This document shows positions 15,594 through 39,377 of a DNA stretch of 64,000 nucleotides, in pieces. This stretch comes from Oceanisphaera profunda. GTDB taxonomy: Bacteria; Pseudomonadota; Gammaproteobacteria; Enterobacterales; Aeromonadaceae. The stretch covers positions 2,418,001 to 2,482,000 of the forward strand of contig NZ_CP021377.1 in NCBI RefSeq assembly GCF_002157895.1, given 5' to 3'. A program made the position numbers and the translations under genes. Each line of letters starts with the position of its first letter. Position 1 is the first letter of the stretch. Under the pieces are notes generated by a model. That model made no database searches and was not told where the DNA came from. It worked only from the letters and a program-made list of their open reading frames with translations.

Positions 15594-15821
15594 TATTTTT
15601 CCTTACACATAGCACTTTTAATGCTGATCATGATTATATTGATGCTGAGTTATTAGCGATATTTTTTATTAATAATTATACCTGATTACCCACAAAGGTC
15701 AGTCATGTTTCAGTGAGTTTAGCATCAATTAATTCAATAGGTTACAGTGAGGTGCCCGCCTATTCGGTAAGAATATGAGGCTCAGTTTGGTATTTTGACC
15801 TTGTAGATACTCTGTTGGACG

Positions 15822-16814
15822 TCAAGATTTTATATGCTGTTCACTGAACAATAACGTCGAATCAAACGGCGTTTCTGTCTTCATACAGGCCCACAAGCCA
15901 GTGAGATATTTTCTCATTATCGCGCACTGAGCCTGTATCTTTTTCTTGCCACGTGAGACCAACGCCTCTGAAAATGCTTTGGCCCTGACGTCGTGCTGAG
16001 CTGCACACATCGCTGGCATATATAATGCAGAGCGAAGGTACGCATTACCTGCTTTACTGAGCCGTGCAGGTCGGTTAACACTTGTTCCTGACTGCGTGAG
16101 ACGCACATCAAGCCCTGCAAATCGACTAACTTGTGGCGCTTTTAAATCCTTAGGTAGGACGCATAATTCAGCCAACACAATGAGTGCTGTTGCCCTTCCT
16201 ACGCCCTTCGCAGCAGACATACTCTTTAAATGCAGAGAAAGTATTTCTGACTCTGCAATTAACGCGAGGGCGGCCTGCGTCAGACGGTCAATACGCCGGC
16301 TTAGCATATCAATCCCGTCCTCCTCATCCTCGATTATCATCGGCATCGTTGCCTGTTTGGCTTGCAACGCATGCAACCGGTTCTTCGCTTGGGTGCGTGT
16401 ACCAGTGAGGCGGTTAATCTGCCTACCGATGTCCCGCAGGCCAAGGTGGCTCTCGCTTGGTGGTGTCCAGAGTCGAGGCTCCATACGCTCACCGTACTCA
16501 GCCAACAGGGCCGAGTCGATACCATCGGTCTTGCTTCCCGTCAGCTTAAGCGTAGCAAAGTGATGGAAGCTTTTTGGGTTAATAACGGCGACGGGTAATC
16601 CTGCTTTTACCAAGGCGACGGCCAAGTCAAAATAGTAAATTCCCGTCGCTTCCATCACGATAAGAGAAGGCGTTTTAGCCAGGAGTCGTTTGACTGCTTT
16701 GGCGTGCCCTTGGGGTGTTTGTTTGAACTGCTCAACTTTAGATGACCGACCATTACTTCTCATCACGAGGTCAAATGTTTTAGCTGCAATATCAATCCCC
16801 ACAAAGACGTTCAT
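15822..16814 (-). CDS. IS110-family transposase (DEDD recombinase)
   Basis: A 330-residue recombinase of the IS110 family. The RuvC-like N-terminal domain carries the DEDD residues D8 (FVGIDIA), E55 (VMEATG), D97 and D100 (KTDGIDS). A coiled-coil middle follows, and the C-terminal Tnp_20 domain has GVGRATA, FAGLDVRLTQSGTS and a probable catalytic Ser262 in YLRSALYMP. I chose ATG 16814 because AAAGGAAAGG lies just upstream; a TTG at 16832 overlaps it. The long upstream and short downstream noncoding ends fit the IS110 rather than the IS1111 group. Confidence 0.95.
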   Translation of the reverse strand: MNVFVGIDIAAKTFDLVMRSNGRSSKVEQFKQTPQGHAKAVKRLLAKTPSLIVMEATGIYYFDLAVALVKAGLPVAVINPKSFHHFATLKLTGSKTDGIDSALLAEYGERMEPRLWTPPSESHLGLRDIGRQINRLTGTRTQAKNRLHALQAKQATMPMIIEDEEDGIDMLSRRIDRLTQAALALIAESEILSLHLKSMSAAKGVGRATALIVLAELCVLPKDLKAPQVSRFAGLDVRLTQSGTSVNRPARLSKAGNAYLRSALYMPAMCAAQHDVRAKAFSEALVSRGKKKIQAQCAIMRKYLTGLWACMKTETPFDSTLLFSEQHIKS

Positions 16815-16877
16815 GGCCTTTCCTTTAAGCAATGGTTTGTTAGATAATGGTCACTGGTTCCTCGACCTCGTACTTTA

Positions 16878-17011
16878 TGCAATCTCAACCTTGTGATGCG
16901 AAGTCCGATTCTTATCGGCTTCCTGATACTCTTCGAGCTTTGCAATGAGGCGGGGAGCCAATCTACAAACGAGGTCAGTAAATACTGCCTCCAGGTGCCA
17001 ACGGCTTCCCC
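16878..17011 (-). ncRNA. Predicted IS110 bridge RNA with target and donor loops
   Basis: On the transposase strand this region forms two stem-enclosed internal loops. Loop 1 (target): outer stem 17003-17011 with 16952-16959 (GGGGAAGCC/GGCTCCCC, one bulge), a left guide TTGGCACCT (16993-17001), hairpin 16971-16991, right guide GTTTGTAG (16963-16970). Loop 2 (donor): outer stem 16935-16944 with 16878-16886, left guide AGAGTATC (16925-16932), hairpin 16900-16922, right guide GCATCACAAG (16890-16899). The left guides equal the left target and the IS right terminus; the right guides are complementary to the right target and, with one bulge, to the IS left terminus. RNA ends are not determined. Confidence 0.75.
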
Positions 17012-17252
17012 AGTAACTGTTAAATACTCTATCAATTCATCTGACTTAAACATACAAGGTGCCAATTTATTCGGCACGGTTTGGTGTTTTGGTTTAAATC
17101 TAAACCTCAGTAACAGCCAGCAGAGCTGGCCTGCCGAATAAATTGGGCAGCTACAAAGAACAAACCGAAACAGGGTGCATTATGGCTGAGGTTCATACGT
17201 AATCAGGTAATTATAAGCAGTAGCAATAATTAAGCTGTAGTAGGCTTCGAGC

Positions 17253-39146: not shown

Positions 39147-39150
39147 GGTA

Positions 39151-39342
39151 CCTGATTACGTATGAGCCTCAGCCATAATGCACCCTGCTTCGGTTTGTTC
39201 TTTGTAGCTGCCCAATTTATTCGGCAGGCCAGCTCTGCTGGCTGTTACTGAGGTTTAGATTTAAATAAAAATACCAAACCGGGCCGAATAAATTGGCCCC
39301 TACAAGGTCAAAATACCAAACTGAGCCTTGTGGGTAATCAGG
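39151..39342 (+). mobile_element. Intact 192-bp MITE with 8-bp target duplication
   Basis: Ends CCTGATTACG and GGGTAATCAGG (9-bp terminal inverted repeat CCTGATTAC). Flanking TATTGGTA at 39143-39150 and 39343-39350 is a perfect 8-bp direct repeat. Inside are hairpin modules around AATTTATTCGGC / GCCGAATAAATT and GCCAGC-TCT-GCTGGC. It encodes no protein, so it must be moved by a transposase elsewhere. 8-bp duplications are known for ISL3, IS66 and IS6-type elements; the parent is not identified. Confidence 0.88.
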
Positions 39343-39377
39343 TATTGGTATTAGTATCTAGCGTGACGATAATAACC

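Follow-up and report, generated by a model that had tools for sequence, protein, structure and literature searches.

A probable bridge RNA-guided insertion sequence of the IS110 group within a MITE copy of Oceanisphaera profunda

In a 64,000-nt stretch of the Oceanisphaera profunda genome (GCF_002157895.1, NZ_CP021377.1, positions 2,418,001-2,482,000 of the forward strand; hereafter the window), I identified what is, with a probability of about 0.94, a complete IS110-group insertion sequence using a bridge RNA, the transposition cycle proposed below included. The bridge-RNA mechanism and the IS110 family are already known, and the element is a well-supported further member. On the minus strand it reads AATAAATTGGCAC-CT-(TGTATG...GAGTAT)-CT-ACAAGGTC; its features are collected in Table 1.

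Table 1. Features of the element, its bridge RNA and its host site (window coordinates).
Feature	Position	Strand	Basis or remark
Interrupted MITE copy, ~278 bp without the IS, host target	15681..17209	-	Joined flanks match other MITE copies across the join
IS110-group insertion sequence, 1250 bp	15807..17056	-	Left end TGTATG, right end GAGTAT; ends recur in four G059 copies
Left CT core	17057..17058	-	Also core of empty MITE sites
Right CT core	15805..15806	-	Read from sequence
Left target TTGGCAC, host MITE DNA	17059..17065	-	Sequence and MITE comparison
Right target ACAAGG, host MITE DNA	15799..15804	-	Sequence and MITE comparison
Transposase/recombinase CDS, 330 aa	15822..16814	-	PF01548 and PF02371 above cut-off; PDB 9t56 and 8wt6 matches
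-10 box TATGTT, left end	17049..17054	-	Would be joined to the -35 box only in the circle; 17-bp spacing over the RE-CT-LE junction
-35 box TTGACG, right end	15820..15825	-	Overlaps transposase stop codon
Bridge RNA, structured part, 172 nt as modelled	16848..17019	-	Covariance models R2 and R1
Left target guide (LTG) TTGGCACCT	16993..17001	-	9/9 with left target and core; covariation in relatives
Target-loop (TBL) hairpin	16971..16991	-	Folds
Right target guide (RTG) GTTTGTAG	16963..16970	-	Pairs CTACAA, then one G-U wobble, then mismatch
Left donor guide (LDG) AGAGTATC	16925..16932	-	8/8 with right end and first core base
Donor-loop (DBL) hairpin	16900..16922	-	Folds
Right donor guide (RDG) CATCACAAG	16890..16898	-	Pairs CTTGTATG: CTTGT, one base skipped, then ATG
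Outer closing helix, 5' arm GTTACTGG	17010..17017	-	8 pairs, covariation
Outer closing helix, 3' arm CCAGTGAC	16850..16857	-	Same covariation test
Alternative target-loop stem, 5' side GGGG-A-AGCC	17003..17011	-	3' side GGCTCCCC at 16952-16959

An earlier note, made from the letters alone, had placed an IS110 element between two CT cores at this position, and its coordinates and ends are borne out by the sequence and by the two Pfam domains. The protein combines a DEDD RuvC-like domain with a Transposase_20 domain carrying the catalytic serine, and in alignment all five catalytic residues (D8, E55, D97, D100 and S242) correspond to those of IS621 (D11, E60, D102, D105 and S241). Its best relatives of solved structure are ISCro4 (PDB 9t56, E 6e-42) and then IS621. 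The non-coding ends measure 242 nt on the left, upstream of the transposase gene, and 15 nt on the right, after the stop codon, which is the layout of the IS110 group. The CT dinucleotide is common to both ends of the element and to all 48 empty MITE sites fetched (see below).

The left end contains two loops. On the 5' side these repeat the left target and the left donor sequence, and on the 3' side they pair with the right target and the right donor sequence, the core being included. The earlier note had drawn the four guides and both loop hairpins as they stand in Table 1, and each of these readings was reproduced, with the mismatch in the RTG coming after its single wobble. When the 242-nt left end was dinucleotide-shuffled 20,000 times, an exact LTG arose 13 times and an exact LDG 133 times, an LTG followed by TTGTAG within 5-60 nt once, and an LTG together with an LDG not at all. 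The single-sequence fold has only moderate stability, with a z of -1.76 and a fold as good in 13 of 200 shuffles, and an Rfam scan of the window gave no match at gathering thresholds. In the window's leader no 5' stem-loop can be made out ahead of the target loop (-1.0 kcal/mol, vs -1.4 for shuffled sequence); such a stem-loop is clear in L045, L048 and L050 among the 11 leaders folded.

Joined through one CT, the right and left ends rebuild the promoter TTGACG-17-TATGTT in the window's element. A pattern TTGANN-17-TATNNT is present at the junction in 12 of 13 elements, with a spacer of 18 in the remaining one, counts that stand without a positive control as the scan gave no row for IS621 (L057). 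From the -10 box, the bridge RNA probably starts near 17042. Since the -35 box overlaps the stop codon of the transposase, the promoter and the coding end are constrained together. For the cycle itself, I infer excision, RNA binding and chemistry from IS621. The element would be excised as a circle, whose joined ends would form a sigma-70-type promoter from which the RNA would be transcribed out of the left end. The transposase would bind this bridge RNA, the LTG and RTG would pair with the two strands of the REP-like hairpin foot TTGGCAC-CT-ACAA in the host MITE family, the LDG and RDG would pair with the circle junction, and strand exchange at the CT core would insert the element.

Two covariance models of the RNA were used, R1 including the window's RNA and R2 built from 12 relatives with the window's RNA left out. 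R2 scores 167.9 bits at 17019-16848, its sole match in the 64-kb window at E≤1, and R1 scores 183.0 bits; the covariance-model check that had been proposed for this region recovers the RNA from a model that has not seen it. Among 369 genomes of the class, a transposase relative was found at E≤1e-45 in seven, all of which have an RNA match. Five of the seven supplied sequences to the RNA model, so only G119 and G323 count as new evidence of co-occurrence. The RNA search also matched an eighth genome, G224, whose element breaks off behind the target loop. The RNA models gave nothing new in the families of G336, G383 and G321 (7, 20 and 5 genomes), and matched the own genome alone among 398 genomes of the phylum. 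No relative of the element was found in E. coli genomes by blastn, in viral contigs by peptide patterns or a bridge-RNA pattern, or in phages with the L044 bridge RNA as query. A related element, with 56% amino acid identity, was found on a Vibrio alginolyticus IncC plasmid (L047, NZ_MH113855.1), the sole plasmid record matched; this conjugative plasmid is a possible vehicle for the spread of the subgroup.

Guide and target covary across the relatives for the LTG. Over 14 elements with one site each (the first listed, which for the window's element is a best-fitting one), 77 of 98 pre-core bases of the LTG match the left flank, against a mean of 46.9 (sd 4.7) for shuffled pairings of guides and flanks, and none of 20,000 shuffles reached 77. 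The four positions nearest the core match in 13, 14, 13 and 14 of the 14 elements; the last of these is C in every guide, so position -1 is without covariation. Over all 25 sites the matches amount to 140/175, vs 81.2 when shuffled. This set leaves out L056, where a CTTGTATG left end could not be located, L065, which is cut off behind the target loop, L061 and L067-L070 (overlapping listed elements), L012 and L060 (the window's own copy) and the 3' fragments of G054. For the RTG the result is weaker: counted strictly over 11 elements (L046, L037 outer, L037 inner, L063 and L064 had no RTG entry), 42 of 66 bases match vs 35.4 shuffled (value reached by 296 of 20,000 shuffles), and with wobble allowed the covariation is not significant (5,177 of 20,000). 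L050-type elements have a mismatch at right-target position +3 in all six sites.

On the donor side, the LDG agrees exactly with the element's own right end in 7 of 13 elements and is one base off in the other six, five of which have G where the end has A. The donor ends are nearly invariant; L064 shares a T-to-C change, and L048 and L050 an A-to-G change, between right end and LDG, and in L044, L045, L051, L063 and L064 the LDG carries G although the right end lacks the A-to-G change.

In a survey of 75 genomes of the family, full copies of the element were found in one other, G059, of the same genus and another species (n=4); G054 has 3' fragments only. The four copies sit at different sites and each carries the same five base differences from the window, which indicates that this type of element has moved recently. 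The earlier note had proposed that flanks of homologous copies be compared with the guide, and the outcome is mixed. The pre-core LTG matches are 7/7 in the window and L035, and 6/7 in L033 and L039. At the nested locus L037 they fall to 5/7 for the outer fragment and 3/7 for the inner copy, whose flank is TTTGACCT. The inner copy, the one misfit among six sites compared for this element, is a result against strict guidance, and is one case of what the note had named as speaking against its reading. In L037 (G059, 970-2508) the IS interrupts a second copy at about position 290, early in the transposase gene of that copy. Of this outer copy the first ~290 bp remain, with a whole second bridge-RNA gene; the rest is missing and a CTACAAGG flank follows. 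Self-insertion followed by homologous recombination would give this arrangement.

The host repeat belongs to a MITE family of ~278 bp with ends ACCTGATTAC/GTAATCAGGT, internal REP-like hairpins and several length variants. When the IS and one CT are removed, the resulting 600 bp align without a break at the join to other MITE copies in the own genome (for instance 96% over query 148-424), which confirms the IS boundaries and the pre-insertion site. The MITE copy at 39.15 kb, which had been taken as intact and as the pre-insertion site, matches the joined flanks at query 148-327 and 402-438 only, with ~75 bp missing. The boundaries drawn from it hold, but its site reads TTGGCCC, one base off the guide, where the occupied site has TTGGCAC. 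The family is seen in the window at 39148-39344, the copy with the internal deletion, and in 52 matches in G000.

The base in question is position -2. All rows spanning the join were fetched, 22 in G000 and 26 in G059, leaving out the 39.15-kb copy, and -2 is C in every one of these 48 empty MITE sites, as it is in the 39.15-kb copy. Among the pre-core bases, -2 is the sole difference from the LTG in 26 of these sites, and the other 22 differ at more positions, the MITE form of the target being TTGGCCCCTACAA vs the guide-matching TTGGCACCTACAA. At the occupied sites, -2 is A in the window, L035 and L037 outer, and T in L033 and L039; the guide has A. The own genome holds 23 TTGGCNCCTACAA sites, diverged copies included, all of them empty, with 13 C, 5 A, 4 T and 1 G at -2, and five perfect TTGGCACCTACAA sites, likewise all empty. 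The nested copy aside, a base other than C in 5/5 occupied sites is suggestive, though short of proof (p 0.016 if drawn from the 23 TTGGCNCCTACAA sites). With its many near-identical target repeats, the host puts guide specificity to a natural test, and the single MITE copy seen to be occupied in this genome is among those with the base that the guide calls for.

The uniform C of the fetched empty sites would also fit an A that was written at -2 by the insertion itself, through guide-templated repair, rather than one that was there before. However, both hairpin arms of the window's MITE carry the variant (GTGCC/GGCAC, vs GGGCC/GGCCC at 39.15 kb), so that it probably predates the insertion, two of the occupied sites in G059 have T instead, and the perfect target exists empty at five places in the own genome; I regard templated repair as very unlikely. 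A less remote alternative, though still an unlikely one, is that the element is correctly read and is a relic, no longer mobile in this host. Its single copy in the own genome, a C-A mismatch in the CCCCGCCUC/GAGGUCGAGG helix and the 23 TTGGCNCCTACAA sites that remain empty are in line with this, whereas its ORF and ends are intact and the copies in G059, with no differences from the window beyond the five they share, point to recent movement of the type.

It is scarcely credible that the transposase alone recognises the hairpin foot, with the upstream structure serving as a 5' UTR or regulatory RNA and the guide matches incidental. For ISPpu9, small RNAs and a structured 5' UTR are reported to regulate the transposase, as far as the available text on it goes, and the sites of the relatives have CT-AC in common to the right of the core. 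Yet in 14 elements the LTG and the flank change together, the transposases, as far as they were measured, having ~35-79% identity to that of the window, and the order and polarity of the guides are those of IS621. A bridge RNA that guides the element to its target is the reading that I prefer.

The RNA of this subgroup may have a further level of structure. In a plain MAFFT alignment of 14 RNAs (A3), an outer helix GUUACUGG/CCAGUGAC is paired in 94.6% of cells, with changes on both sides in 4 of 8 pairs (7 cells); its covariation score was reached by 0 of 500 shuffles and its number of both-side pairs by 4 of 500, in a test that somewhat favours the helix, which was first proposed from a consensus fold of 11 of the A3 sequences. 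Slid versions of the helix drop to 18-59% pairing. The outer helix is supported by covariation, and its role is putative. The IS621-like target-loop stem, GGGG-A-AGCC/GGCU-CCCC, is paired in 99.1% of cells with both-side changes in 3 of 8 pairs, and a donor-side helix CCCCGCCUC/GAGGUCGGGG in 95.2%, with two both-side pairs (reached by 25 of 500 shuffles). These two use one and the same CCCC strand, which nearly all relatives retain. When the pairs are enforced, the energy of the clamped form lies below that of the 8-bp target stem in 12/12 A2 sequences, by 1.7 to 7.4 kcal/mol, and that of the unconstrained optimum lies below both (A2; bare structures without L047).

It is conceivable, if doubtful, that the outer helix closes the bridge RNA of the subgroup into a three-way junction, in which the CCCC strand would close either the target loop, by pairing with the 5' GGGG as in IS621, or the donor loop, by pairing with the 3' GGGG. 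Such an RNA could switch between target-ready and donor-ready forms, or tie both loops in one molecule. If the outer helix and the shared CCCC do matter, the subgroup would offer bridge-RNA recombination another, compact scaffold, and would help to study the coordination of the target and donor loops.

Among known systems, the closest described likeness is to IS621, as the earlier note had proposed: guide order, polarity, CT in the guides, the discontinuous RDG, the junction promoter and DEDD+S all agree. As far as the text of PMC11208160 and PMC11208158 describes it, IS621 likewise encodes its RNA in the left end, with LTG-hairpin-RTG followed by LDG-hairpin-RDG and a CT core, has a promoter over the RE-LE junction, and inserts at the base of a REP-like hairpin, where CTAC follows on the right. 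The window's transposase is 32% identical to that of IS621. Where the window's RDG skips one base, the IS621 RDG has two bases flipped out at the same place, by the description in PMC11208158. Unlike the IS621 bridge RNA as described in the text, the window's RNA is extended on the 3' side and closes with an outer helix around the two loops; the IS621 RNA scores 12.6 and 9.3 bits with the two models and aligns around the donor loop only. Diverse bridge-RNA structures are reported for other IS110 elements in the text of PMC11208160. In the IS621 synaptic complex, in the published text concerned, the two loops come from different RNAs, unlike the single-molecule tie suggested above. The IS621 bridge-RNA gene itself contains a copy of the left target and CT core, and in L057 1485-1557 (E. 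coli NZ_CP063349.1), as also in L132 and L133, IS621 sits immediately behind its own LTG sequence. Among 5,426 E. coli genomes, 10 have this self-guide junction, at 11 places in all; it adjoins ybiT in L057 and L133 and rhlE in L132.

ISCro4 (PDB 9t56), compared by protein alone, resembles the window's element through the transposase sequence match given above. Within the IS110/IS1111 seekRNA elements, as set out in the text of PMC11187229, the window's element is of the IS110 type, with a non-coding region upstream of tnp, unlike IS1111, for which that text gives a downstream non-coding region. The same text describes subterminal inverted repeats for IS1111. REP-targeting IS110 elements such as ISPpu10, likened by description only, insert like the window's element into a repeated extragenic palindrome.
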